Virus record (IMG/VR): IMGVR_UViG_3300038648_000021
Span: 1-27,351 of that record
Source of the DNA: a virus
Strand: one strand, 5' to 3'
Length of the DNA: 27,351 bases
The position numbers were made by a program, and so were the translations under genes. Below, piece by piece: positions 2,076 to 15,025 of this stretch. How positions within the stretch are numbered: position 1 is the first letter of the stretch; the number at the start of each line of letters is the position of its first letter. The notes below the pieces were generated by a model. It saw only the letters and a program-made list of their open reading frames with translations. It made no database searches and had not been told where the DNA came from.

Positions 2076-3659
2076 ATGGCAACTTCCGGCCGCCCCGGCG
2101 TGTTCACGAGTGAGTACTTCGCGCCACTTGCCGTGGGCAACAACCCTATCCCGGGTGAGGCGCTTCCGGCAATCGCCTGCGCACACCCTCGCGGACCTCT
2201 GGGCCCGCAACTGATTACCTCCTGGGGTCAGTTCGTTCGCCTGTATGGTGACTTCACGCAGTCCCCCGGCTCCCTCCTGCCTTTCGCCGTCTCCCAGTTC
2301 TTCGTGGCTAACGGTGGATCTCAGCTCTTCGTCCTGCGCCTCCCGAACTCTGATGCCACCTACGCTAGTCTGGACCTCCAAGACGTTAACAGTGACGATG
2401 AAGGTTCGACTGGTGCGGTTACCGTTACCGCGCTGACTCCCGGTGTCTGGGCGCAGAACGTTTTCATCGAGGTCACTGCCTGCACGAATAGTGGCACCCG
2501 GGTGTCCTCAAACTTCAACGTGTATCTTGGTAGTGTTCAGGTCGAGACCTGGCAGGACCTGTCCATGAACCCAATGGACTCCCGGTACCTGGCAGCCATT
2601 GTTAACTCGGGCTCCAACTACATCCGAGTTACTGACAACATCAACCAGACTCCGGTTCTCGCGGGTGCGGATGCTTATGCTCTCGGCTCAAGTGACCTGC
2701 TTCCCGTCTCTCCGTCGCCTCTGACTGGTGGCTCGGACGGCAGCACCCCGCCGGTTATTGCCACAGTGGTTCCCCAGTGGCTCGACACGCTGACCAACCA
2801 GGTTCTCGTTGTCAACGTTCCCGGACTGTCGAACGTCACCATCCTGAACTCTCTGATCGCATGGGCGGCCGACCGTGGTGACAAGTTCATTGTCATTGAC
2901 GGCCCCCAGCCAAACCTGGCCAATATTGGCACGCTCGGGTACAGTGGCTCTGTTGTTACCGAGTACGCCCAGATGGTGGCCAGTGGTAGCCCGGTGCTAA
3001 CGGCTTCTTCGTATGCGGCAGTGTACGCTCCCTGGCTGCTGGTTCAGGACCCATCCTCGTCTGCCCCTGGTGCGACTCGCTGGCTGCCCCCGGGCCCGGC
3101 TGTCCTTGCGGTGTACAACACCAATGACTCCGCGAATGGCGTATTCGATACCCCCGCTGGAACCACGGCACAGATAAACGCCATTGGACTGGAAACGAAT
3201 TTCGCACAGGTTGACCTGGATAACCTGAACGACATGCAGGTCAATGCTATTAAGGTTGTTCCCGGTGCGGGCTTCTGCATCTTCGGCGGTAGGACGCTAG
3301 CTGTTGGGTACCCCGACCGGTACATCTCGATTCGCCGGATGATCATGCAGCTTGAGCATGACTTCGAGAACATCCTTCAGGGCTTCCTGTTCCAGCCGAA
3401 CGACTACCTGCTCTGGAGGTACATCTCCACTGCCCTGACCAACTATCTGATTCAGCAGATGCAGATCGGTGCACTGGCAGGCTCCACTCCCAACACTGCT
3501 TACCAGGTTGTCTGCGACGATACTAACAACACGCCATCTCTCATTGCGGCTGGTATTGTTACAGCGGATGTTGCGGTTGCTCTTAACAGCCCGGCCGAAT
3601 TCATCAACATCAATCTCTCCCAGTTCCAGGGCACCACGACCGCTACCACCACCACGTGA
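2076..3659 (+). CDS. Contractile tail sheath protein
   Basis: A protein of 527 residues with typical sheath layout. Near the N-terminus GVFTSEYFAPL (about residues 8-18) matches the start seen in many sheath proteins (G-V/I-Y-x-x-E). The C-terminal third carries the conserved sheath domain: an RRMIMQLEHDFEN helix, FLFQPND near residues 437-442, a WRYISTALTNYLIQQ helix, and a terminal beta strand ending in FININLSQF. Sheath subunits polymerise around the tail tube and contract to drive the tube through the envelope. Start ATG 2076 follows AAGAGGAGAAAAGA, one of the strongest ribosome binding sites in the window, as expected for an abundant virion protein. The tail tube gene follows after 15 bases. 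Identification is confident. Confidence 0.93.
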   Translation: MATSGRPGVFTSEYFAPLAVGNNPIPGEALPAIACAHPRGPLGPQLITSWGQFVRLYGDFTQSPGSLLPFAVSQFFVANGGSQLFVLRLPNSDATYASLDLQDVNSDDEGSTGAVTVTALTPGVWAQNVFIEVTACTNSGTRVSSNFNVYLGSVQVETWQDLSMNPMDSRYLAAIVNSGSNYIRVTDNINQTPVLAGADAYALGSSDLLPVSPSPLTGGSDGSTPPVIATVVPQWLDTLTNQVLVVNVPGLSNVTILNSLIAWAADRGDKFIVIDGPQPNLANIGTLGYSGSVVTEYAQMVASGSPVLTASSYAAVYAPWLLVQDPSSSAPGATRWLPPGPAVLAVYNTNDSANGVFDTPAGTTAQINAIGLETNFAQVDLDNLNDMQVNAIKVVPGAGFCIFGGRTLAVGYPDRYISIRRMIMQLEHDFENILQGFLFQPNDYLLWRYISTALTNYLIQQMQIGALAGSTPNTAYQVVCDDTNNTPSLIAAGIVTADVAVALNSPAEFININLSQFQGTTTATTTT

Positions 3660-3674
3660 TCAGGGGATAAATAA

Positions 3675-4247
3675 ATGTCGGTTACTCAGAAGTCGTCCCT
3701 TAGCTCGGTCGCGACTGACCCGCTCAGGAACTTCAAATTCTACGTTCAAATCAACCCAATGTCTGGCAACATCATGGGCACTGGGGCCATCACTCTAGGC
3801 TTCATGACCGTCTCCGGTCTGGGTATGAATATGGATGTCATCCCCTACCGCGAAGGTAACATGAACACCACAACCCAAAAGTCTGTGGGACAGACCGACT
3901 TCAACCCGATTACGCTGACTCGTGGCGTGACGCTGGGTGCTAGTCAGATGCAGATCGAATGGCTGACGCAGATGTTCGTTGTCGTCAATGGTACCGGCAC
4001 CGCTGCTCAAGGTGCCGAGTATCGTTCAGACCTTTTCGTCTACGTGGTTGACCACCCGTCCACCGGCCCATCCGCTCCCGAGAAGGCTGGGTTCCACGTC
4101 CAGCGTGCATGGCCCTCGGCCGTTGCTTACTCGGACCTGGATGCTGGAGCTAACCAGCTCTTCATCAGCCAGATCACCTTTGCTCACGAAGGCTTCGACG
4201 CGGCTGTTGCTGCGGCTGCTGGCTCCACTGCCATCGGCAGTATCTGA
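3675..4247 (+). CDS. Major tail tube protein (T4 gp19-like)
   Basis: A protein of 190 residues, the usual size for gp19-type tube subunits. Typical features are DPLRNFKFYVQINP near residues 15-28, GFMTVSGLGM, then YREGNMNTTTQK and the conserved ITLTRGVTLGASQ strand-turn region; the C-terminal half ends with DLDAGANQLFISQITFAHEGFD. Subunits stack as hexameric rings inside the sheath to form the DNA channel. GGGGA at 3663-3667 before the ATG is the ribosome binding site. It follows the sheath by 15 bases, the classic sheath-tube pair. A second gene of the same family lies at 5320-5997; this one is the better candidate for the major subunit because it has the better ribosome binding site and the compact length. 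A strong hairpin follows the gene directly. Confidence 0.93.
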   Translation: MSVTQKSSLSSVATDPLRNFKFYVQINPMSGNIMGTGAITLGFMTVSGLGMNMDVIPYREGNMNTTTQKSVGQTDFNPITLTRGVTLGASQMQIEWLTQMFVVVNGTGTAAQGAEYRSDLFVYVVDHPSTGPSAPEKAGFHVQRAWPSAVAYSDLDAGANQLFISQITFAHEGFDAAVAAAAGSTAIGSI

Positions 4248-4297
4248 TAGACTAACAATTGCTCGGCCGGAATGTTAGTTTCGGCCGGGCAACTATC
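4246..4297 (+). terminator. Hairpin after tail tube gene, with competing fold
   Basis: TTGCTCGGCCGGAA (4259-4272) pairs with TTTCGGCCGGGCAA (4279-4292) as a 14-bp stem with two G-U pairs and a 6-base loop. GATAG at 4246-4250 can also pair with CTATC at 4293-4297. ACTAACA (4251-4257) can instead pair over 7 bases with TGTTAGT (4273-4279), which is the loop plus the first stem base, so two folds exclude each other. There is no U-tract. Likely a partial terminator, an RNA-stability element or an attenuator lowering expression after the abundant sheath and tube genes. The pairings are read directly; the function is inference. Confidence 0.6.
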
Positions 4298-4321
4298 AAA
4301 TCACTAATTCGGAGAAATGAC

Positions 4322-5161
4322 ATGGTTGACAAAACGGTCTCATCGAGTACTGACCCGGCTAAGGCTGCTGCAATGGCCAAGGCCGTTATGGATGCTGGTA
4401 AGGAAGAGTTCCCCAAGGAGCCTCCCGAGCTTGCACCTGATACGGTTGATCTCCCAGGCGGGCTAGTCCGTGGCGACGAGGTTATTCGCACCGCGACCGT
4501 CCGTGAACTTACTGGTGAGGACGAAGAGAAGCTGTACAAGGCTCTCGCCTCGAACAACCGGTACCATTTCACGAACGTGCTGCTTGAGTGTGGCACCGAG
4601 CTGATCGGTGATGAGCCTGCTAAGCCACTGCTAAAGAACCTCCTTATAGGAGACCGTGAGCAGATCATCCTGGCCATCCGGCGTGTCACCTACGGTGATA
4701 ACATTACTGTCGTCAACTACGAGTGCCCCGAGTGCGGCGTTGTCACCCCCCAGATCTCATTCGACATCTCCGAAGACATCCCGGTCAGGAAGCTTGAACA
4801 CCCGAGTGACATTGAATTCGAGGTTAAGCTTCGCAAGGGATCGGTGGCCCACGTCAGGCTCCCGACCGGCGCTGACCAGAAGATTCTGTCCGAGCACCCG
4901 GATGCTACACTCGCTGAGCGCAACACACTCATGCTCCAGAACGTCATCCGCATACTCGTTGATCCGAACGGTACTCAGCATAACCTTGCCGTTGAGCCTT
5001 CTCTTGCACTGAAGATGGGTCTCGTTGACCGGCGCTCCATCCTGACCGAAGTTGCCAAGCGAACGCCCGGCCCGCGCTATAATGATATTAAGTTCGTGCA
5101 CGAGGCTTGTGGCAAAGAGGTGACCCTCGGGATTGACCTTGGGGACTTGTTTCTCAGCTAG
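4322..5161 (+). CDS. T4 gp26-like baseplate/tail assembly chaperone
   Basis: A protein of 279 residues. I use ATG 4322, not the upstream in-frame start at 4259, because CGGAG lies 7 bases before it and the upstream codons fall inside the hairpin. The layout (LPGGLVRGDEVIRTATVREL, a helical GEDEEKLYKAL, then IRRVTYGDNITVVNYECPECG) resembles the T4 base-plate hub assembly family (gp26 type). Cys135-x2-Cys138 and a distant His260-x2-Cys263 could complete one metal site from two ends of the chain. The family is thought to help assemble the baseplate hub; this is not a classical tape-measure chaperone. Its 3' end overlaps the open frame of a tiny ORF, so it also fills the place where chaperone frameshift pairs are found. 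The family call is from memory of the pattern and is moderately sure. Confidence 0.65.
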   Translation: MVDKTVSSSTDPAKAAAMAKAVMDAGKEEFPKEPPELAPDTVDLPGGLVRGDEVIRTATVRELTGEDEEKLYKALASNNRYHFTNVLLECGTELIGDEPAKPLLKNLLIGDREQIILAIRRVTYGDNITVVNYECPECGVVTPQISFDISEDIPVRKLEHPSDIEFEVKLRKGSVAHVRLPTGADQKILSEHPDATLAERNTLMLQNVIRILVDPNGTQHNLAVEPSLALKMGLVDRRSILTEVAKRTPGPRYNDIKFVHEACGKEVTLGIDLGDLFLS

Positions 5162-5180
5162 CATCGAGCGGCGCGATATA

Positions 5181-5186
5181 TATAAT
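5181..5186 (+). promoter_or_regulatory. TATAAT box in an AT-rich patch
   Basis: A perfect TATAAT sits within a run of alternating A and T at 5176-5186, unusual for this GC-rich region. No good -35 is seen 17 bases upstream (CTAGCA). Transcription from it would begin near the GGAG at 5193-5196, leaving almost no leader for the tiny ORF but a normal leader for the second tube gene at 5320. It is a weak promoter candidate that could serve the second tube. Confidence 0.3.
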
Positions 5187-5204
5187 CAATTCGGAGCAAT
5201 ATAC

Positions 5205-5318
5205 CTGTCATTCCCAGCTTGGACCCCACGTGATTGTCTGGGATTAACCGTACACCAGCGTGCCTACTGGGCCAAGTGGTCTATAGCACGTTATGAGAGA
5301 GTTCACGGGGCAGAGTAG
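5205..5318 (+). CDS. Tiny ORF, candidate second chaperone, CTG start or frameshift
   Basis: The frame is open from 5124 to the TAG at 5316-5318 but contains no ATG or GTG. From CTG 5205 it encodes 37 residues (SFPAWTPRDCLGLTVHQRA, then AYWAKWSIARYERV), a protein-like amphipathic helical sequence. The ribosome-binding context ATTCGGAGCAATATAC before this CTG closely matches ATTCGGAGCATTAAC before ATG 22118, which favours CTG as a real start. Alternatives are TTG 5133, preceded by GAGGTGA 9 bases upstream, or a +1 slip from the gp26-like gene within 5124-5161. In T4 a small protein, gp51, works with gp26 in hub assembly; this ORF may be its counterpart, by position and size only. It ends one base before the second tube start. 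Confidence 0.45.
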   Translation: MSFPAWTPRDCLGLTVHQRAYWAKWSIARYERVHGAE

Positions 5319-5319
5319 T

Positions 5320-5997
5320 ATGGCTATAGAACAGGTGTCGTCACTGTCGTCGAACGCGACTGATCCGTTACGTGACTTCAAGTTCGCCATTACCATTCAA
5401 GGTAATGGCTCGGCTGCGCCGCCTCCGATAACCATGGGCTTCGTGACCTGTTCTGGGCTGGGCCTCGTATCCGACGTCATCTCCTACCGTGGTGGCGGGA
5501 TGAACCTTTCGACCCAGAACATGCCTGGTCAGGTCACCTGGAATCCCCTGATGCTCACTAGGGGAATAACGCTAGGCGCTACCCAGATCCAGACAACGTG
5601 GCTTCAGCAGATATTTAGTCTTATGCAGGGGACCGGTAGCCAAGTAGGGGTAACCAGCGGAGGCACCACTGTTGGCGGGATAACAAAGACGACAGACTTC
5701 AGGTCAACGATAACGATTGCCGTGCTATCCCACCCTGACACAGGCCCTAGCGCAGCAGAGCTAGCTACCTTCATTCTATATAACGCATGGCCCTACACCA
5801 TAGCTTACGGTGATCTGGACGCTGGAAGCAATCAGTTGTTTATCTACCAGATGGCGCTAATGTTCGAGGGTTTCGACTCTTACGTTGGGACAAATACTGC
5901 TGGTCTGGTTGCTGCTGTCAAGCCGGACTCAACTACGACACCCGTAACCACCGGCCTCGGAACTACTGCCTCTCCGAACATCGCGGCGACACGATGA
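5320..5997 (+). CDS. Second tail tube paralogue (possible tube initiator)
   Basis: A protein of 225 residues, clearly homologous to the major tube at 3675. Shared blocks are SSLSS-x-ATDPLR-x-FKF at the N-terminus, GF-x-T-x-SGLG, LTRG-x-TLGA-x-Q, and DLDAG-x-NQLFI followed by EGFD near the end. It is longer through an insertion around SGGTTVGGITKTTDF and a Thr/Ser-rich C-terminal tail. I use ATG 5320, not ATG 5293, because it aligns with the start of the major tube. No clear ribosome binding site precedes it, so translation may be coupled to the tiny ORF and its output low. Contractile injection systems such as Afp/PVC encode a second tube-family protein that begins the tube on the hub; a similar role is inferred here. 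Family membership is confident, the role is not. Confidence 0.85.
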   Translation: MAIEQVSSLSSNATDPLRDFKFAITIQGNGSAAPPPITMGFVTCSGLGLVSDVISYRGGGMNLSTQNMPGQVTWNPLMLTRGITLGATQIQTTWLQQIFSLMQGTGSQVGVTSGGTTVGGITKTTDFRSTITIAVLSHPDTGPSAAELATFILYNAWPYTIAYGDLDAGSNQLFIYQMALMFEGFDSYVGTNTAGLVAAVKPDSTTTPVTTGLGTTASPNIAATR

Positions 5998-5999
5998 AC

Positions 6000-6200
6000 T
6001 TACTTACGCTTGATCTTCAGCGCGTTACGGAACCTGCTGAAAGCGTGCGCGGTTGCCATAACAGCGGCTACTGCCACCATATTCTCCGCAAACAGCTTGT
6101 CTTCAAGGTTACTCGCGTCCTCGACACCTTGCTCGAACGCTCGGAAGCCACGTACCTGCTGGGCCATGCGATCACCGGCGGTGGGAAACTCGTTGCTCAT
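6000..6200 (-). CDS. Reverse-strand small protein of unknown function
   Basis: A 66-residue protein and the only convincing reverse-strand gene in the window. It starts at ATG 6200 (complement) with GAGAGAAGG just upstream, and ends in a basic tail (RFRNALKIKRK). The N-terminal half is acidic and polar (SNEFPTAGDRMAQQV, then FEQGVEDASNLEDKL); the middle AENMVAVAAVMATAHAF is an Ala-rich hydrophobic helix, perhaps membrane-touching. Composition and codon use resemble the neighbouring genes, whereas the overlapping + strand frame gives a His/Cys/Arg-rich product typical of an antisense shadow. It fills the space between the second tube and the tape measure and would be transcribed head-on to the tail operon. 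It could be a moron-like accessory gene or an antisense control unit. No family recognised. Confidence 0.55.
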   Translation of the reverse strand: MSNEFPTAGDRMAQQVRGFRAFEQGVEDASNLEDKLFAENMVAVAAVMATAHAFSRFRNALKIKRK

Positions 6201-6252: not shown

Positions 6253-9200
6253 GTGCCTGAGCCAGATATCGGGGGCGGGATGAACATGGGTCCGGGCCAG
6301 ACTGCCGGGACAGGTCCCTACGCGACACCCCAGACTACCGCCGTCCTCGGGACGAATGATCTCCAGAAGGCAATTGACGGGTTCAGTGCTACGGTCACGA
6401 AGCTGTCTACTCTCTATAACCAGATGTCAAAGGATGCTAAGGCTGGCAACGGTATCTTCGGCAGCAATAGTGGCAGCTCAGGTAGTCCCACACTAGTCTC
6501 AGCGCAGCAGACCAAGAGCCCTACTGGGTTCATGGCAAACGTTACGGAAGCCTTCAGCTTCATGCGTGGCACTGCGGGCGCTGTTCACGGTAAAGATGTC
6601 TTCGGCGCACCCAAGACTCCTGGGTTCAACTCGAACACCCACACCAACGGCGGCAACGGGCAAGGCTTCGCGGGCCAGGCATCCTTCAGCGGCTCCCAGA
6701 CGGCCCCTGCGGGCCCAGCAGGACCTGGGGGGACTGGGGGGCCTGGAGTTACTTCTGCCGCCTCTGGAGGCGGTAGCGGAGGCTGGGCGGGTACCATCCG
6801 GGCCGGTGGCTTCATGGCGGTGGTCGGCTCCATAGCCAGCTTCGGCAGCCAGAACATGAGCACCCAGAACAACATCAACGGCTTCACGCGACAGATGGGA
6901 ATGTTCGGAGTATCGAACTACGCTGCCCGCTACAACTCTATTGGTGCTAACGGCCAGAACGAGAACGCTCTCGCACAGAACTCAGGTGATGCGGTAGCCG
7001 GTGCTGCTTCAGTATTCTCGGTAGGTAACTACGCACCTGGCTCGCAGCGTTTCAACGCGGCACAAGGTATGACCAATGCGATTGGGGTGACCAACCCCGG
7101 GCTCGGTTACGCTGCCAGCGCTCAGGCAATGGCACAAATGTACAGCCCGCAGACGAGTTACCGGATGCTTCAGATGGGCTACTCGGCCCAGCCGCTGAAG
7201 ATTGGTGGGGGCACCAGTAACGCGGGCCAGCTTAGCAACAGCATTATGAGCAGGATCTTCCCGACCGTTGGAACAGGCAAGCTCACCCAAGGTCAGTTCA
7301 ACACGTCCTTTAGTGCCAATGGTAAGGGCACGATGGACCTGACCCAGGCGGGTTTGGACCCAAGTATCATGACCCCGCTGCTTTCGTCGTACAACAAGTA
7401 CATGGGCACGAAGGGTGCGACACAGGCCGGATTCAACAAGGACATCAATGCTATCGCCCATGGTAACCAGAGTCTTGGCAAGAAGCTGGGCATTAACTCT
7501 TCTAACATCATCGCCGCGCAAGGTGCACAGGCAGCAAGCACCTCTATGCAAGGCGACGTCTCACAGAGCTTCTCTGATGGACTGAATGACGCGACCGCAT
7601 CCCTTTCCACTTTCCGTAACCTCCTGGATAAGATAGTTTCCGCGCCTGGAATTAACCAGGTAGCCGGTGGCAGTGCTGGTGCCCTTGGTGGTCTTCACGA
7701 CCTTAGCCACCCGAAGAGCATGATTGAGGGCATTGGGGGGATGGCGATGCTCTCTGGTATCGCCAATAGGTTCGGTGGCGGCATGATGACCACCTCCGCT
7801 GCTATCGCTGCCGGGGCTACCCCCGTGGTGCAAGTCGGTGGTGGCAACGGTATCGGCGGTGGTGGCCTCAGCGGTGGCGGTGGTCTTGCGTCCAGTAGAC
7901 TAGGCCAGGGTGCAGCCGGTATCGGTGACTCGATGGGGCTGACCAGCATTGGCGAGGGCGGGGCTATTACCGCAGCCAGCCTTGCACCATTACTGCTGCC
8001 TCTCATGGCCGTCGCTATCCCACTCGCGGTGGTCCTGTTCGCGAAGTACATCCCGGGTGACCGCACGACGCAGAAGAAGGTAGCTACAACAGCCAATAAT
8101 GCAGTGTCGGCACAGCGAAAAGGCATAGCAGCGGGTACGGCACAAAACGTTCCCGGCGAGACGGCCCTTCCCACGGGCTACCACGACCCGGGACGTGCCA
8201 TAGCTCCATCCGCGCCAGCGGGAAGTGTGCAGAGCCGCTATGCGGCCGGTGGCGTCCTCCCCGGGTACGCACCTGGTCGGGACACAGTGCATGCTATGCT
8301 GTCGCCGGGTGAAGGTGTTCTGGTCCCTGAGGCCGTCAAGGGTGTGGGTGGCGCGAAAGCAATTAACGCCATCAACAAGAAGTACGCCGGGCACCGTGGT
8401 GCAGGTAAGGGACACCCGCAGGGCGGGCGCGGTGTACAGCACTACGCTACTGGTGGAGAGGTCGCATCGTACGCCGAAACCTTCGCTACTGGCCTCACTC
8501 ACCCCTACGTAACTGGCGGTGCAACTCCCTCTGGCTGGGACTGTTCAGGTTTCTCGGCCTACGTCTACGAGAAGTTCGGGCTGTTCCCGGGTAAGCAGGG
8601 TACTCGCTACGGCACTTCTGAGACCCAGTATTCTGACTCGCACCTGAAGTCTTCCAATGGGCCGGTGGCTGGTGGCCTGGTGTTCTTCGATGACGGGGTG
8701 TACGCGAACCCCGGGCACGTTGGTGTCGTTATCAGTGGCAGCCAGTACGTTGGGGCAGACAGTTCATCCGTTGGTACCGTCAAGGGTCCTTTGACTGGTG
8801 CCGTGGGCTACCGTATCCCGAAGAGCTGGACGGGTAACGGGCAGACAGGCAGCAACGGAAACAGCGGCTCTAGCAGCAGTGGCCAGGCAGCCGGTTACAC
8901 ACAGATTACTGGCGGTGGTGGCAGCTCGACCAGTGAGGCAAACAACGTGTCCGGTGGCCTATCCGCTAGCGGTGGGAACTATACTCCTGCTGTGGCTGGT
9001 AGTGGTGGCGGTGGCGGTGGCGGTGGAGCTAGTGGCACAGCAGGAAGCGTTGGCAACGTTGGTCCGGGTGAGGCAGCATTCATTAAGGCTGTGCTAAAGG
9101 GAATTGGTGCGCCGCAAAGTACCCCTCAGGTAGACGCAATGCAAGTTTGGGCCAAGGCAGAAGGTGGCGGCTTCGGCACCGAGAACCAGGCCAACTATAA

Positions 9201-9795
9201 CCCGTGGAACCTTAACCCAGGCCCTGGCGCGGGCTGGCCAGGACATAACGCAACCGGTGCCTGGTCGTTCCCGAACGCTACTGACGGAGCTAAGTACACC
9301 GCGCAGGTTATGGAGCAGAGTAACTACACGTCTATCCTGGGTGCCTTTAAGAAGTCTGGCAATACTGAGAACGCTATTCTTCAAGCAATTAAGACCGGTG
9401 GCTGGGCTCAGTCCGGCTACGCTGGTAACGACGAGATGACAGCGGGAATTGCTAATACGCAAGGCGGCAAGAACTGGGCGGGTGCTGTCGGTGGTGTCGT
9501 TCCCAGCGTACAGACATTCGCAACCGGTGGAGTCGCGACCGGACACTTTACGAATGTGCTCGAATGTGCCCCGACGAAGGCAAGCAGTGGTGGCGGTAAC
9601 ACTGTGCACCTAGAATTCAAGCAGGGTTCTATTGTCATAGGTGGTGGTTCGAGTGGCGGAAAGAAGCCTCCTTACCAGGGGAGTACGGGAACGAAGTATG
9701 ATGCTTCAGACTCGGCGCGAGAACTTATTACAGAGATCAAGAGGCAGCTTGAGAGCGAAGATCTCTATGCTTCGATAGCGAAGGGGAACCACTAA
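6253..9795 (+). CDS. Tape measure protein with two muralytic-like domains
   Basis: A protein of 1180 residues that sets tail length and is released into the envelope at infection. Residues 1-560 are Gly/Ser/Asn/Ala-rich. A hydrophobic segment (LAPLLLPLMAVAIPLAVVLF) lies near residues 575-600. Next comes a motif typical of tape measure proteins, PGRDTVHAMLSPGEGVLVPE. Residues about 736-860 form an NlpC/P60 domain with DCSGF (Cys764) and GHVGVV (His822), a papain-like peptidoglycan peptidase. A glycine linker leads to a second domain (about 936-1085) with AKAEGGGFG (candidate catalytic Glu970) and NPWNLN, resembling the lysozyme-like domains of actinophage tape measures. The C-terminus (ARELITEIKRQLES) is helical. 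GTG 6253 has AGGGTGG upstream; ATG 6280 is the alternative. The stop overlaps the next gene. Confidence 0.9.
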   Translation: MPEPDIGGGMNMGPGQTAGTGPYATPQTTAVLGTNDLQKAIDGFSATVTKLSTLYNQMSKDAKAGNGIFGSNSGSSGSPTLVSAQQTKSPTGFMANVTEAFSFMRGTAGAVHGKDVFGAPKTPGFNSNTHTNGGNGQGFAGQASFSGSQTAPAGPAGPGGTGGPGVTSAASGGGSGGWAGTIRAGGFMAVVGSIASFGSQNMSTQNNINGFTRQMGMFGVSNYAARYNSIGANGQNENALAQNSGDAVAGAASVFSVGNYAPGSQRFNAAQGMTNAIGVTNPGLGYAASAQAMAQMYSPQTSYRMLQMGYSAQPLKIGGGTSNAGQLSNSIMSRIFPTVGTGKLTQGQFNTSFSANGKGTMDLTQAGLDPSIMTPLLSSYNKYMGTKGATQAGFNKDINAIAHGNQSLGKKLGINSSNIIAAQGAQAASTSMQGDVSQSFSDGLNDATASLSTFRNLLDKIVSAPGINQVAGGSAGALGGLHDLSHPKSMIEGIGGMAMLSGIANRFGGGMMTTSAAIAAGATPVVQVGGGNGIGGGGLSGGGGLASSRLGQGAAGIGDSMGLTSIGEGGAITAASLAPLLLPLMAVAIPLAVVLFAKYIPGDRTTQKKVATTANNAVSAQRKGIAAGTAQNVPGETALPTGYHDPGRAIAPSAPAGSVQSRYAAGGVLPGYAPGRDTVHAMLSPGEGVLVPEAVKGVGGAKAINAINKKYAGHRGAGKGHPQGGRGVQHYATGGEVASYAETFATGLTHPYVTGGATPSGWDCSGFSAYVYEKFGLFPGKQGTRYGTSETQYSDSHLKSSNGPVAGGLVFFDDGVYANPGHVGVVISGSQYVGADSSSVGTVKGPLTGAVGYRIPKSWTGNGQTGSNGNSGSSSSGQAAGYTQITGGGGSSTSEANNVSGGLSASGGNYTPAVAGSGGGGGGGGASGTAGSVGNVGPGEAAFIKAVLKGIGAPQSTPQVDAMQVWAKAEGGGFGTENQANYNPWNLNPGPGAGWPGHNATGAWSFPNATDGAKYTAQVMEQSNYTSILGAFKKSGNTENAILQAIKTGGWAQSGYAGNDEMTAGIANTQGGKNWAGAVGGVVPSVQTFATGGVATGHFTNVLECAPTKASSGGGNTVHLEFKQGSIVIGGGSSGGKKPPYQGSTGTKYDASDSARELITEIKRQLESEDLYASIAKGNH

Positions 9796-11099
9796 TGGGT
9801 GTCCAGCCAGCCGTGGGCTCGGCCACAGCAAGTAAAACAAACGCCCAGCAGCAGGCAGCTATCGCAGCCGCCGCTGCCCCCGGGTACGATAACTACGCTT
9901 CAACGGTGGCTCAGCAGGACTCATCGTCCACTGCATACTACCAGGGCAACGCTGGTGACAACGGCGGGGTGACAGACCTCCCTGCCGGGTACTCCTCTAG
10001 TGGTGGCACTTCCTCGTCAGGCAGCACAGACAGTAACAGTGGTGGAGGAGGCGGTGGCGGTGGAGGAGGCGGTGGCGGTGGAGGAGGCGGTGGCGGCGGT
10101 GGAGGTGGCGGTTCCACCAGCTCCAGCAGCTCCACTAATACGAACATCGGCACCTACTTCTATACACAGCCTCCCTTCGACCCACGTCTTACTTCTCTTC
10201 CATTCCTGTCTGGTCAGGGTGCGGGTAAGATCACAGAAGGATACATGATCTGGGACCAGGCGAAGTCACTGCCCGGGTACACGAAGCGGGCAATGGTAAA
10301 CTTCCTGTACAACCCGACGACAGTAGACACGAGCTACGCTATTGACGATGACAACGTGTCCGGTGCCCTTGTGTTCGCACAGCCAGGTGACCTTGCTGCG
10401 GCTGTTGTCCCAATGAATGCCTCGGTGTCCTTCTCCCTGCTGTATGACAGGACCTTCGAGCTGTGGGGCTCGTACAATACTGACGGGACACCCAGTTCCT
10501 CGACGCCCGGTACCCCAGCAAACATGAACGATGCTGGACAAGGTGGTGTCAACGTCGATATCATGGCGTTCAAGCAGCTAACAGGGCAACTAGCAGACCA
10601 GCCTAACGGGCAGAATGGTGCAAAGAAGAGCTACTTCAACATCCAGGGTCCAATGGTTCTGGTTCCCACGTGGCTGTATCTCGGCCCACCCTCCAGCGGC
10701 ATGTTCTACTTCGGCTATGTCTCGGCGTGGGATGCGACGATTACACACTGGACACAGTTCATGGTGCCGATGCGTTGCACAATAGCCGTTACCTTCACTA
10801 TGATTCCACCGCCGTGGAATGAGCCACTGACTGGCTCGGGTGCTAATTCATTCTGGAGTCTGCAATCGCTGGTCGGCCCATCCTCTCCGACAAACGGTAT
10901 TCTGCCGACACCTAGTGGCAGTGGCGGAAGCGGTGGTACTGGCACGGCACTCCCGGCGACGGATCTTCTGCCGGGCGGTAAGATACCAACTCCGACTGCT
11001 ACCCCAGTTCCAAATAAGCCTGCTCCCGCGCCCCCTAAGATGCCTCAGGCTCCAGCACCTACTAATCAAACCGGTGGCTCGAAGTTCGGGAGTTCATAA
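9795..11099 (+). CDS. CIS_tube-like baseplate protein with polyglycine linker
   Basis: A protein of 434 residues. An Ala/Gln/Ser/Gly-rich N-terminal arm ends in a run of 24 glycines and a Ser-rich segment. The folded part follows: AMVNFLYNPTTVDTSY, SVSFSLLYDRTFELW, GGVNVDIMAFKQLTG, FGYVSAWDATITHWT and PMRCTIAVTFTMIPP. This order of strands resembles the N-terminal domain of contractile injection tube proteins of the Afp7 type (CIS_tube), which bridge tube/hub and baseplate. The tail is Pro/Ala-rich and disordered. In Afp7-like proteins a LysM domain is fused at the C-terminus; here the next gene encodes it separately. It starts at ATG 9795, overlapping the tape measure stop. The family call is by pattern, moderately sure. 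Confidence 0.65.
   Translation: MGVQPAVGSATASKTNAQQQAAIAAAAAPGYDNYASTVAQQDSSSTAYYQGNAGDNGGVTDLPAGYSSSGGTSSSGSTDSNSGGGGGGGGGGGGGGGGGGGGGGGGSTSSSSSTNTNIGTYFYTQPPFDPRLTSLPFLSGQGAGKITEGYMIWDQAKSLPGYTKRAMVNFLYNPTTVDTSYAIDDDNVSGALVFAQPGDLAAAVVPMNASVSFSLLYDRTFELWGSYNTDGTPSSSTPGTPANMNDAGQGGVNVDIMAFKQLTGQLADQPNGQNGAKKSYFNIQGPMVLVPTWLYLGPPSSGMFYFGYVSAWDATITHWTQFMVPMRCTIAVTFTMIPPPWNEPLTGSGANSFWSLQSLVGPSSPTNGILPTPSGSGGSGGTGTALPATDLLPGGKIPTPTATPVPNKPAPAPPKMPQAPAPTNQTGGSKFGSS
10041..10112 (+). repeat. Tandem 18-bp repeat encoding 24 glycines
   Basis: Three perfect copies of GGTGGAGGAGGCGGTGGC (10041-10058, 10059-10076, 10077-10094) are followed by six more glycine codons to 10112. All codons are GGN, and the unit is in frame, so copy-number change would alter linker length without breaking the gene. 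The purine-rich G strand could also form G-quadruplex-like structures. Confidence 0.95.
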
Positions 11100-11377
11100 T
11101 GGCTATCAGTGCAACCGGGCGCTACGCGAGTAGTACGGTCGTTAACCTCGATGTCGATGGCCAGGTTCGTAAGGTAATTGTTCCCGGCCCGGAGAATGTA
11201 TTCACCTTTAGTTATCAGACACACATGTGGACAGATTTTGACCGCCCTGATAGTCTCGCTGAGAACTACTATGGTGATGCAACACAGTGGTGGAACATAG
11301 CTAACGGGAATCCCGAGATCATGGATTGGTCGCAGGTAGTGATGGGTACTATCATCAGAATTCCGAGCCTCCTCTGA
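11099..11377 (+). CDS. LysM/gpX-like tail adapter protein
   Basis: A protein of 92 residues. The C-terminal half reads FDRPDSLAENYYGDATQWW, then NIANGNPEIMDWSQVVMG and IIRIPSLL, the pattern of the LysM-like fold of P2 gpX and of LysM baseplate adapters (D-x-x-x-x-A-x-x-Y-G-D, W-x-x-I-A-x-x-N, G-x-x-I-x-I-P). Such proteins join the baseplate hub to the tube or sheath initiator. The start overlaps the upstream stop (TAATG) and the stop overlaps the next start (TGATG), so it is co-translated between the CIS_tube-like protein and the hub. In Afp7 these two domains are one protein, so the pair here looks like a split version. Confident on the fold, fairly confident on the role. Confidence 0.75.
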   Translation: MAISATGRYASSTVVNLDVDGQVRKVIVPGPENVFTFSYQTHMWTDFDRPDSLAENYYGDATQWWNIANGNPEIMDWSQVVMGTIIRIPSLL

Positions 11378-12549
11378 TGGCTGCTGCTGTAGGCCCGGTT
11401 GTATTCCAGGTCAAGGTGAATGGGACAGTGATTAACGAGTCCCCCCTGGACTTTGAGCTGCGCCAAGCATGGGGTAGTCACGATCTATTTTTCATCCGGC
11501 TCGTCGTGCCAAAGCTCAAGCCCAATAAATCCCTGCTTAAAGCATGGGCGGATGGTTCTCCCGTGGAGATCCTGTGGGGACGTCAACCGACCTCGGTGAG
11601 CACCTGGTACGGGTACATCAACCACCACGAGTCCAGCTCCACTGACGACCAGAAGCTCGGGCTCTGGCAGATGACGTACGTTATAATCGGCTCATCGAAA
11701 GTCCTGAATGGTCACAATAGCCGTACCTGGAAGGGTATGACTGCCGCCGGGATAGCACAAACAATTGCCAGAGCTAATGGGTTCCGGGCAGTGGTAACCC
11801 AGTCAACCTGGGTGCTGCCACTAGAGATACAGTCCAACGAGTCGGACTTCCAGTTCCTCACACGTATAGCTGATAAGGTTGGGTTCCGATTCTGGGTGAG
11901 CGGTGGAACCCTCTACCTGATTGACCCACTGGTGCTGGTGTCTGCCGGAACTAGCTACGTGGTTCCTCATTACGTCATTAACAAGGCTCTCTATGTCCAG
12001 GACACCGCCATAAATTTCAAGGTGGTGCAGGGAGATAACATACCTGGCTCGGTTAAGATGAATAGGACGATTTACGGCGTGGATTCTAGTGGCGTGTACG
12101 CGGTAACGGCGAGCGGTGACAGCTACCAAGACTATAATATCGACTCGTCGAGGTACGTGGCATCCCGAAGTGAGGCCCAGAGCATCGTAAACGCGAACAA
12201 GTCACTCGCACAATTCTGGATACAGGCTACCGTGGATGTCTTCGGGTACAACGTGCTCTACCCTGGTAAGGTGATTAACCTATCCGGTGCTGCCATTCCT
12301 GATGGTGACTCGGGTGACTGGATTGTCACCGGGGCCGACCATATCCTGAAGCCTTCTGGCACCCGGGCGGCGGTTGACGACACGTATGTCACGCGACTAA
12401 CACTCTGCCGTAACACTAAGGACACAACACTCGTGCCTTATATTAAGAGTGTGCAGCCAGTGGTACCAGAGATCGTCACATGCAGGCTCCAGGCTAACAA
12501 GTGGATAGCCACGCAAATGGCTACGATTACACAGGGGATAGAGTCATGA
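11377..12549 (+). CDS. Baseplate hub protein (gp27/gpD-like)
   Basis: A protein of 390 residues. I use ATG 11377 in a TGATG overlap; the longer reading from 11326 runs into the preceding gene. Hub-type features: an early strand-rich domain (VFQVKVNGTVINESPLDFEL), the segment GMTAAGIAQTIARANGF, and the typical NESDFQFLTRIADKVGFRFW near the middle, shared by T4 gp27, P2 gpD and VgrG N-terminal regions. A late TVDVFGYNVLYPGKVINL strand pair also fits the family. It forms the trimeric centre of the baseplate between tube and spike. The next gene encodes the spike and overlaps by ATGA, so hub and spike are separate here, unlike VgrG. Assignment is confident. Confidence 0.85.
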   Translation: MAAAVGPVVFQVKVNGTVINESPLDFELRQAWGSHDLFFIRLVVPKLKPNKSLLKAWADGSPVEILWGRQPTSVSTWYGYINHHESSSTDDQKLGLWQMTYVIIGSSKVLNGHNSRTWKGMTAAGIAQTIARANGFRAVVTQSTWVLPLEIQSNESDFQFLTRIADKVGFRFWVSGGTLYLIDPLVLVSAGTSYVVPHYVINKALYVQDTAINFKVVQGDNIPGSVKMNRTIYGVDSSGVYAVTASGDSYQDYNIDSSRYVASRSEAQSIVNANKSLAQFWIQATVDVFGYNVLYPGKVINLSGAAIPDGDSGDWIVTGADHILKPSGTRAAVDDTYVTRLTLCRNTKDTTLVPYIKSVQPVVPEIVTCRLQANKWIATQMATITQGIES

Positions 12550-13067
12550 CCACACGACAGTGGCTGGGCATCTACATGGGGCGTGTGGCGAAGACTCGCG
12601 CTGCTGACCTGTGTGTCCAGCTCCAGGTCCCCCAGGTCCTTGGTACCGCCGTAACAGATTGGGCCCAGCCTCTTGGGTACCAGAATAACGGGAGCACGTC
12701 TACGGCTGGCCCAGGCCCGGCTACAGGCACTCTAGTCCAGGTCATGTTCATCGGCGGGGATGTGCGGACACCTGTCTACCATCTATACGCTCAGGCGAAT
12801 GACACATCGTTGCACAGCCAGGCGGGTACAACGACAGAGATAGGTACGATGTCGTCTGGTGACTGGTGGTCCTCCAATACAGCAACGCCAATTGGCGGGA
12901 CTACGGGGCCGGGATTAAGCGGTGGTAACCTCCACTACCATGCGCTCGGTGATACAACTCACTCACACGACATCAACTACGACAATGCTCTCAGCAACCA
13001 GATCAACACAGTCATCAACCAGCTAAATGAAATAACCACGAAACTTGAAGCAGCCGGGATTCTCTAA
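12546..13067 (+). CDS. Baseplate spike protein with HxH tip motifs (gpV-like)
   Basis: A protein of 173 residues starting at ATG 12546 (ATGA overlap with the hub). The N-terminal part, IYMGRVAKTRAADLCVQLQV through ATGTLVQVMFIGGDVRTPVY, reads as the OB-fold barrel of gpV/gp5-type spikes. Near the C-terminus it has His130-Tyr-His132 and His139-Ser-His141-Asp. P2 gpV and related spikes hold an iron ion at the tip through an HxH motif from each of three chains; two such motifs occur here. A helical C-terminal segment follows (NQINTVINQLNEITTKLEAA), likely a trimeric coiled coil, which is unusual for a spike that normally ends at the tip. The protein is shorter than a full beta-helix spike. Role confident, details inferred. 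Confidence 0.75.
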   Translation: MTTRQWLGIYMGRVAKTRAADLCVQLQVPQVLGTAVTDWAQPLGYQNNGSTSTAGPGPATGTLVQVMFIGGDVRTPVYHLYAQANDTSLHSQAGTTTEIGTMSSGDWWSSNTATPIGGTTGPGLSGGNLHYHALGDTTHSHDINYDNALSNQINTVINQLNEITTKLEAAGIL

Positions 13068-13085: not shown

Positions 13086-13478
13086 ATGGCTGAGATATTA
13101 TACCCCTTCGGGCTGGACGTCCACGGGAGTGTCGCCGCGACTTCGGACCCGAACGTCCAGCAGATGCAGCACGTTGATTCACTGGTGTCCACGTACCCGG
13201 GTGAGCGCGTCATGCGGCCGACCTATGGCATTCCCCTGCGTGACTACGTGTTCGAGCCGGGGCCGGACTTCGTGTCTAACGAGCTTCAAAGGAATGTGAC
13301 ACTAGCTGTTGGCCAGTGGGAGCCTACGGTTCAGGTGACACAGGTAACCCCCGTGCTCGACGAGGACACTCAGGGTGTCGTCTCCATTGATGTAGACTTC
13401 AATAGCAGTAACTCGGCATCGAACGCACCAGTTCACACTGCCACCGTGTACGTTGGAGGATCGGTGACCACGACATGA
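13086..13478 (+). CDS. gp25-like baseplate wedge protein
   Basis: A protein of 130 residues, normal for the gp25/gpW-type wedge family, which shares the fold of T4 gp25 and helps trigger sheath assembly on the baseplate. Visible features are YPFGLDVHGSVAATSDPNV at the N-terminus, STYPGERVMRPTYGIPL (the conserved region around the E-R-x-x-R-P-x-x-G block) and a C-terminal beta strand in VVSIDVDFNSS. GGAAG at 13077-13081 is the ribosome binding site. The stop overlaps the gpJ-like gene (ATGA), the standard gp25-gpJ order. Confident. Confidence 0.85.
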   Translation: MAEILYPFGLDVHGSVAATSDPNVQQMQHVDSLVSTYPGERVMRPTYGIPLRDYVFEPGPDFVSNELQRNVTLAVGQWEPTVQVTQVTPVLDEDTQGVVSIDVDFNSSNSASNAPVHTATVYVGGSVTTT

Positions 13479-15025
13479 CAAGCCCTATTCCGGCTCAGTA
13501 CCCTTCTCTGCAAATCCCAGCGTCTATTGACTACACGTCCAAGGACTTCACCACGCTAGCTGCGTCCATGCTGACGTACGCTGGCCAGGCTATGCCCGAC
13601 TGGAATACAACGTCCGAAGGTGACTTCGGCGTGATGATGGTCGAGCTTATGGCATACATGGGAGATATACTCTCCTATTATGGTGACCGGATTACACAAG
13701 AGGCGTACCTCCCTACTGCCACCCAGCGCCTGAGCCTGCTGAACATCGCTACCACACTAGGTTATGTTCCGTCTGCCAGCATCCCATCTAGTGGTGTCCT
13801 CACCTTCCAGACTGACGCAACTGGCCCAGCCGTTACTATCCCAGCACTGACACAGGTGGTGGCCAGTGTCACCCCAGCAGGACAGTCTGGGCCTCCAGTA
13901 TTCGAGACCCAGAGCGCGATAGTTGTTCCGCCGAATGGTGGCACGATGTCGGTCGAAATTGTCCAGGGGTACACCGAGACATTCGTGCAGATCGGAACGT
14001 CGGACGGAACGCCTAGCCAGGCATTCGCTCTCCCCCAGCTTGGTGTTATCGAATACAGTGTGGCCGTCTATGTAGAATCCCCCGACACAGTGTCTGCGCC
14101 AAATGAGTGGTCTCAGGTAGACTTCATGATTGATGCGCAACCTGACGACCAGGTGTTCGCTATCGCGTCCGACCAGAATGGTGTCACCTACCTAGTCTTT
14201 GGCGACAACCAGAATGGTATGATCCCAGGAATTAACCTGAACATCTGGGCCTCGTACCGCGTGGGCGTGGGCAGTGCTGGTAACCTGCCCGCAGGTTCGG
14301 TGAATGCTATGGTGCAGACCATTCCGGGTGTGGGGATAGCCTTACTTGATGATGGGGTCACTCCAATCTGCTCACTGATGGGTGGCGGGGCTGACGCTGA
14401 GTCCAACGATAGTATCCGCCAGAACACATCACTCGCGTTTTCGACGCAGTATCGAGCAATCAGCCCTCAGGATTACACGAACCTCGCCTACAATGTGCCC
14501 GGTGTCCTCATGGCTAACGCTGTCTTCGGTAACGCCAACAGTGTGACCCTGTACGTCCTTGGGCCGAACTATGCGGCCCCCGGACCTCTTCTGGTGGACA
14601 ACATACTCGACTACTTCACACCGCTGGCAGCGGGCGGCGTGACGCTCTCTGTGGCCGACCCAAACATTGTGTCAGTAGACATCGGGGCACCTATCGCCCC
14701 TTCTTTGCTGAACCCTACCGGTGGAACAGCAAGCCCTGCGGTGCAGCTCCAGGTGAAGCCGAAGTTCTCGCAGGCAGTGGTGACGGCTAACGTTATTGCC
14801 GCGCTGCAAGCTCTCCTATCCCCACCGAACGTTTCCTTCGGCCAGCTCCTTAATGTCTCGGACATCTTCGAGGCCATTGTTGCTGTCGCTGGTGTCGCGT
14901 ACGTCAGCATTCCTGTATTCACCCGTGAAGACGTGGCACAGACTGGTACCACTTCCATTCAATTCCGCCAGAGCGAGGTCCCAATGATAGGTACCATTAA
15001 CATTCAGGCCTCCGGGGGGATCTAA
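13475..15025 (+). CDS. gpJ-like baseplate wedge protein
   Basis: A protein of 516 residues in the gpJ/T4 gp6 family, which forms the ring of the baseplate linked to gp25 and gpI. Key stretches: the N-terminal DYTSKDFTTLAASML, NTTSEGDFGVMMVELMAYMG, DILSYYGDRITQEAYLPTA and TQRLSLLNIATTLGYVPS, all typical of this family; later FGDNQNGMIPG and GVGSAGNLPAGSVNAM are the conserved G-rich turn; the C-terminal region reads ISPQDYTNLAYNVPGV. It starts at ATG 13475 in an ATGA overlap with the gp25-like gene and is followed after one base by the next gene. Family assignment is confident. Confidence 0.9.
   Translation: MTSPIPAQYPSLQIPASIDYTSKDFTTLAASMLTYAGQAMPDWNTTSEGDFGVMMVELMAYMGDILSYYGDRITQEAYLPTATQRLSLLNIATTLGYVPSASIPSSGVLTFQTDATGPAVTIPALTQVVASVTPAGQSGPPVFETQSAIVVPPNGGTMSVEIVQGYTETFVQIGTSDGTPSQAFALPQLGVIEYSVAVYVESPDTVSAPNEWSQVDFMIDAQPDDQVFAIASDQNGVTYLVFGDNQNGMIPGINLNIWASYRVGVGSAGNLPAGSVNAMVQTIPGVGIALLDDGVTPICSLMGGGADAESNDSIRQNTSLAFSTQYRAISPQDYTNLAYNVPGVLMANAVFGNANSVTLYVLGPNYAAPGPLLVDNILDYFTPLAAGGVTLSVADPNIVSVDIGAPIAPSLLNPTGGTASPAVQLQVKPKFSQAVVTANVIAALQALLSPPNVSFGQLLNVSDIFEAIVAVAGVAYVSIPVFTREDVAQTGTTSIQFRQSEVPMIGTINIQASGGI

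Follow-up and report, generated by a model that had tools for sequence, protein, structure and literature searches.

How a contractile phage might use two tail tube proteins is the question raised by a 27,351-base viral fragment from IMG/VR, the whole of which we refer to as the window. The phage is a virus of soil actinobacteria, and the fragment carries a contractile tail module in which the usual sheath-adjacent tube gene (tube1) is joined by a second tube gene (tube2) behind the chaperone gene. The first-pass annotation proposed that the second protein might serve as a hub initiator ring, as Afp5 does, or build a specialised segment of the tail.

The tail module and its two tube genes

The module is read on the plus strand. 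It begins with a neck/tail-terminator-like protein (1266-2063, 265 aa) that is 39.8% identical to BRock gp139 (E = 3e-27) and whose GiJojo homologue is annotated as a tail terminator. Next come the tail sheath (2076-3659, 527 aa; phrog_23 tail sheath, 3.7e-37), tube1 (3675-4247, 190 aa), identified as the main tail tube protein from its place beside the sheath, as in single-tube relatives, a T4_baseplate-domain tail assembly chaperone (4322-5161, 279 aa; PF12322, 3.9e-13), a small ORF in another frame that overlaps the chaperone end (5133-5318), and tube2 (5320-5997, 225 aa). The tape-measure protein (6253-9795, 1180 aa) is assigned from its NlpC/P60 domain (PF00877, 7e-11), its position and its homology to the long ORF that follows the chaperone in relatives, so that the order sheath, tube1, chaperone, tube2, tape measure is as originally noted. 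It is followed by a tube-initiator protein (9795-11099, 434 aa) with a barrel core at 10140-10841, identified through structural matches of its AF2 model (pLDDT 77.9); a run of about 25-30 glycines precedes the barrel domain. Beyond it lie a LysM-type small baseplate protein (11099-11377, 92 aa; phrog_7145, 1.4e-7, with PF05489 Phage_tail_X below its cut-off at 0.0038), a gpD/VgrG-like hub (11326-12549, 407 aa; PF05954, 1.7e-10), a spike-like protein (12501-13067, 188 aa; 37% over 75 aa to BRock gp130), a gp25-like sheath initiator (13086-13478, 130 aa; 38.6% to BRock gp129; TssE model, 0.0084) and a gpJ-like baseplate wedge (13475-15025, 516 aa; TIGR02243, 1.6e-52). In Afp7 and Alg7, the LysM part is fused to the barrel.

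That the proteins at 3675 and 5320 are tube paralogues sharing a set of gp19-like motifs was the starting observation, and it is confirmed. The two are 49% identical over 194 columns (BLASTP E = 8e-60), the motifs are present in both, and their PF06841 (T4_gp19) scores of 83.3 bits (1.8e-23) for tube1 and 65.1 bits (7.3e-18) for tube2 exceed the Pfam gathering cut-off of 28.2. Both match phrog_4542 'tail tube protein', and tube2 also passes the TIGR02241 cut-off (63.7 versus 62.4 bits). The AF2 model of tube2 is a tube barrel that matches tubes of CIS and of phages (VIA Z scores reach 12.6, with an rmsd of 5.0 over 143 residues), with a mean pLDDT of only 67.6 and low values in the β2-β3 loop itself. 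An extra loop and a Ser/Thr tail had been singled out in tube2; both are particular to this phage, the tail being absent from the tube2 of a related locus, L007, and the loop shorter there, and these features were dropped as a hallmark since orthologues do not share them. Identity between duplicate copies is roughly 45-65% across the group. With dN/dS values of about 0.09 (L038/L049) and 0.27 (L007/L009) indicating purifying selection, the second copies are real genes under constraint.

The reported lack of a clear ribosome binding site before tube2 was confirmed, with the refinement that its start is not placed at random: it lies at or overlaps the stop of the small ORF in the window (TAG T ATG), in L007 (TAG GTG) and in L009 (overlapping GTGA). 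The small ORF resembles BRock gp135 and is probably reached by frameshifting, because conservation in L007 and L009 extends to residues that precede any start codon. It and its equivalents in those two loci lie in the +1 (or -2) frame over the chaperone end, beside the conserved GACYTGTTTCTCNNNTAGC, and a programmed frameshift of the tail chaperone is probable. Coupled translation of tube2 is thus likely in the window group, and its output may be low because the upstream ORF is itself probably reached by frameshifting, which would fit a minor component.

The window has a minus-strand ORF of 66 aa (6000-6200) between tube2 and the tape measure; its homologues in L007 (8688-8888) and L009 (5449-5646) lie at the same place but on the plus strand. 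The window and L007 versions are 42% identical (E = 3.9e-10; 37.4 bits against 20.4 for the best shuffle). Judged by this homology, the arrangement is a single-gene inversion inside a late operon; a search for long flanking inverted repeats around the gene found none. In L049, L034, L035, L021 and L015, segments related to it are found near where the neck gene begins.

Distribution and history of the second copy

An alignment-based scan of IMG/VR yielded 268 relatives, of which 80 loci were retained; further loci came from a second scan. Among the loci from both scans, two tubes occur besides the window only in L007, L008, L009, L038, L049 and L086 (L087 and L088 are re-fetches of L049 and L038, and L003 and L004 are parts of the window). 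When tube1 or tube2 was the sole query, close-relative scans of IMG/VR gave no match, a tube2-only profile found no members further than L007-L009, and a DNA pattern for the S/T-TQNMPG motif matched only L038, L049, L070 and unrelated proteins. Most contigs with a tube pair are fragments, as is the window; contigs of 101-116 kb carry one full-length tube each, and actinobacterial prophage loci have a single tube gene each, that of L150 being split in two. The closest isolates are Streptomyces myophages. BRock, LuckySocke, GiJojo, pSt2308 and Alone3 share the tail gene order and homologous components with the window phage but have only one tube gene against its two; a megablast of the window against phage records found no match. 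This search for the pair in related phages shows a second tube-family protein to be rare, most relatives having a single tube.

The second copy lies behind the chaperone in the window and L007-L009, and directly behind tube1 in L038 and L049; in L086 it precedes the neck gene by about 2 kb. In the tree, second copies of the window type group together (100/98), and the tube1 proteins of the same group are their sister clade (97/90); those of L038 and L049 form another clade, and L086 stands apart on a long branch. The three gene arrangements look like separate duplications. Repeated duplication is the favoured history because the AU test rejects a single clade of all second copies (p = 0.029), also when the last quarter of the alignment, where the L038 conversion tract lies, is removed (p = 0.008); long branches and gene conversion leave some room for one old event.

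The conversion tract is found in the tandem tube genes of L038 (10001-11142), which share in their last quarter a 42-bp stretch of identical DNA and 12 of 14 fourfold sites, suggesting recent gene conversion. One old duplication, kept in few phages and partly homogenised in this way, would account for the tract, and an Asn common to all second copies (see below) would then be inherited rather than convergent. Such a history, which overlaps the functional readings considered below and is compatible with any function, appears unlikely to us: the single clade is rejected more strongly once the last quarter is removed, and no conversion tracts were found in the tube pairs of the window, L007 or L009.

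The β2-β3 loop and resemblance to initiator rings

We compared the six second copies with 72 other tube sequences at the positions conserved in at least 90% of the 72. K69 of tube1 (codon 3879-3881) is kept in 70 of the 72 and is replaced by Asn in all six second copies (N67 in tube2, codon 5518-5520), and D75 (codon 3897-3899) is likewise kept in 70 of the 72 and in none of the six. T65 is lost and L100 and T148 are altered in every second copy, and N19, K21, T66 and F76 are lost in most. Within residues 60-82, 5 of 14 conserved positions are lost in at least four copies, versus 7 of 56 elsewhere, a modest enrichment per position; a count of charged loop residues fails to tell every second copy apart from other tubes. 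The two K69 exceptions among other tubes, L070 (N/S) and L081 (Q/S), also lack D75. K69 and D75 covary, since both loci lose them together, and loss of the pair in these main tubes means that it is not unique to second copies, which counts against placing tube2 at the tube base. The N/S version of L070 lies at 9998-10549, and its close relatives L014 and L015 keep the lysine; no partner tube copy was found on the L070 contig. In a 115-kb relative, an ORF for an unrelated protein of 299 aa that probably has a membrane segment (L170, 903-1802) contains on the minus strand, at 1320-1448, the sequence SEVIPYREGGFNNTIQEIP, which is nearly a tail tube β2-β3 loop and may be a captured loop fragment or a chance mimic.

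Residues 60-82 are the β2-β3 loop, which by homology would occupy the same place in the ring as in solved tubes. The homologous hairpin of the pyocin and T4 tubes lies under the neighbouring subunit and contacts the lower disk (PMC6088184). In λ, the β2-β3 loop and the N-loop make inter-ring contacts, and mutation of aspartates in the loop, which are needed for ring stacking, stops tube growth (PMC8718954). The sequence changes of tube2 affect the β2-β3 loop and the region near the N terminus, through which stacked rings are joined in tubes of known structure. The eCIS tubes keep the KMPG lysine; the aligned Afp5, All3323 and Alg5 lack it.

The position of these changes bears on two other roles for tube2. 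It might be built into a mixed tube, either as tube1-tube2 heterohexamers or as a distinct stretch with altered stiffness or cargo handling. The gp19 fold and most conserved positions are retained, the PDB holds a Bacteroides Hcp2-Hcp3 heterohexamer (9vne), and in L038 the ATG of tube2 overlaps the stop codon of tube1, an arrangement that could yield nearly equal amounts of both. We nonetheless consider a mixed tube improbable: the consistent changes are in inter-ring elements and not clearly in lateral ones, and in the window group the gene has moved behind the chaperone, coupled to a probable frameshift ORF. Alternatively, tube2 could be a spare tube protein that evades host sensors of tube monomers such as DSR2 and has no dedicated position. 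DSR2 binds the monomeric tail tube protein through loop 1, between β2 and β3, the loop that is altered in tube2 (PMC10981675). Both the tree and dN/dS indicate that tube2 changes faster than tube1 in the window group, which would suit an escaping copy. Escape should diversify the loop, however, and the same Asn replaces the lysine in all six second copies; the tubes studied with DSR2 are also of another type (phage SPR). We know of no DSR2-like sensor in these hosts and regard this role as highly unlikely.

In eCIS, Cis5 and Cis7 rings lie under the tube (PMC8894135, PMC8894136), and loss of tube proteins including Pvc5 blocks the particles (PMC12210884). The core of the initiator at 9795-11099 has its best structural matches in Afp7/Pvc7/Alg7 and the A-1(L) initiator, and a protein of this type is also present, alone, in single-tube relatives. 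We scored the same PDB tube and initiator chains in four matched profile searches (A3, A4, A8 and A9) and a single-tube control (A10), using three-sequence profiles and counting chains absent from the score output as at or below the reporting limit. The mean tube-minus-initiator score is about +14 bits for single tubes (A10) and about +18 to +20 bits for tube1 of paired phages (A8, A9), and about +2 and 0 bits for the second copies (A3, A4). Initiator scores of the second copies are not above those of single tubes (A10 mean about 33), which speaks against a base ring; it is mainly the loss of tube-like score that closes the gap. We had considered a rise in initiator similarity of the second copies and dropped it, the single-tube control also scoring initiators well. 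The second copies have thus lost their tube bias and the paired tube1 its initiator similarity, which looks like a division of labour, though one that the narrow NCBIfam CIS models do not show.

These scores and the loop also bear on the opposite end of the tail, where tube2 could form the final ring and fit the tube to the tail terminator. One altered face would be expected of a special ring at whichever end it sat, and the most proximal Afp1 ring of AFP already differs in conformation (PMC8718954). The altered loop, however, faces the lower disk in solved tubes (PMC6088184), and the second copies score like initiator rings, so that a head-proximal position seems very unlikely.

Direct comparison of tube2 with Afp5 gives a divided answer. 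Afp5 is its best phmmer match and, for the tube2 monomer model, its top Foldseek match, which speaks for the initiator idea, but VIA-align ranks Afp1 and Pvc5 equally; this tie and the low pLDDT of the loop weigh against a base ring. The NCBIfam CIS1 and CIS5 models do not separate tube1 from tube2: CIS5_fam shows no preference for tube2 in the window (37.5 versus 37.4 bits) or in L007 (34.0 versus 43.6 bits for tube1), and the 37.5 bits of tube2 are far from its equivalog cut-off of 260. Separate descent from the main tube, which marks a Cis5, is not seen either, tube2 grouping with the tube1 of its own group (100/96) in a tree of phage tubes only. As with a Cis5, tube2 coexists with a main tube (3675) and an Afp7-type barrel protein (9795-11099), and the β2-β3 lysine is missing.

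A possible base ring and its counterparts

The initiator idea draws on three kinds of evidence: the second copies have all lost the Lys/Asp pair of the loop, their profiles no longer favour tubes over initiators, and translation of tube2 is probably coupled in the window group. These suggest a specialised ring whose ring-ring interface has changed and which resembles eCIS initiator rings. Plain equivalence with Afp5 has to be given up: tube2 is not orthologous to Afp5, it misses the CIS5 cut-off, and an Afp7-like initiator is already present. Our preferred reading, held tentatively and at somewhat less than even confidence, is that tube2 forms one specialised ring that works like Afp5 without being an Afp5, most probably between the Afp7-like initiator and the main tube. 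Tube2 would have arisen when the tail tube gene was duplicated within this lineage, and would then have specialised as a minor ring. Made in small amounts by coupled translation, it would assemble into one (or few) hexameric rings whose upper face stays compatible with tube1 and whose lower face fits the initiator. As the first ring above the baseplate, it would start the polymerisation of tube1, much as Afp5 sits between Afp7 and Afp1; in single-tube relatives, tube1 would bind the initiator with no ring in between, as the tubes of phages A-1(L) and Mu do. Against a base ring it must be said that these relatives assemble tails without tube2, and that the three classes of second copy occupy three different gene positions.

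A broader proposal, which we consider possible though on balance doubtful, is that at least three tube duplications in one group of actinobacterial contractile phages each turned the spare copy into an Afp5-like base ring with loss of the same Lys/Asp pair, replaying the origin of the two-initiator-ring architecture of T4 and eCIS. The literature searched gave no description of recurrent tube duplication with a common loop signature. What an extra ring does could be tested directly on the relatives that naturally have one tube gene or two, and a gene annotated 'tail tube protein' in phages of this kind can conceal a component that differs in structure.

Phage G provides a precedent for a contractile phage with two tube candidates: a 2021 description of its gp179 and gp180 assigned them no definite roles (PMC8570332). 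They lie between the sheath and the chaperones, and in the available text of that report they are credited with only distant HHpred similarity to tubes, with no mention of recurrence or of a loop signature (PMC8570332).

The Cis5 proteins (Afp5, Pvc5, Alg5 and All3323) resemble tube2 as gp19-fold paralogues that accompany a main tube and an Afp7-type barrel, lack the KMPG loop lysine and score better with the second copies than with their partner tube1. They differ in that tube2 arose from the tube gene of its own phage group, and its gene lies between the chaperone and the tape measure.

The initiators of T4 are highly diverged, and the origin of separate tube-fold initiator rings, whether gp48/gp54 or Cis5/Cis7, is usually lost in such deep divergence; the duplications described here are recent enough to show which residues change first. 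In T4, gp48 and gp54 form hexameric rings between the hub and the gp19 tube (PMC8718954). T4 baseplate chains (5iv5) are among the structural matches of both the tube2 and the initiator models, but gp48 and gp54 lack comparable sequence similarity, whereas tube2 is 49% identical to tube1.
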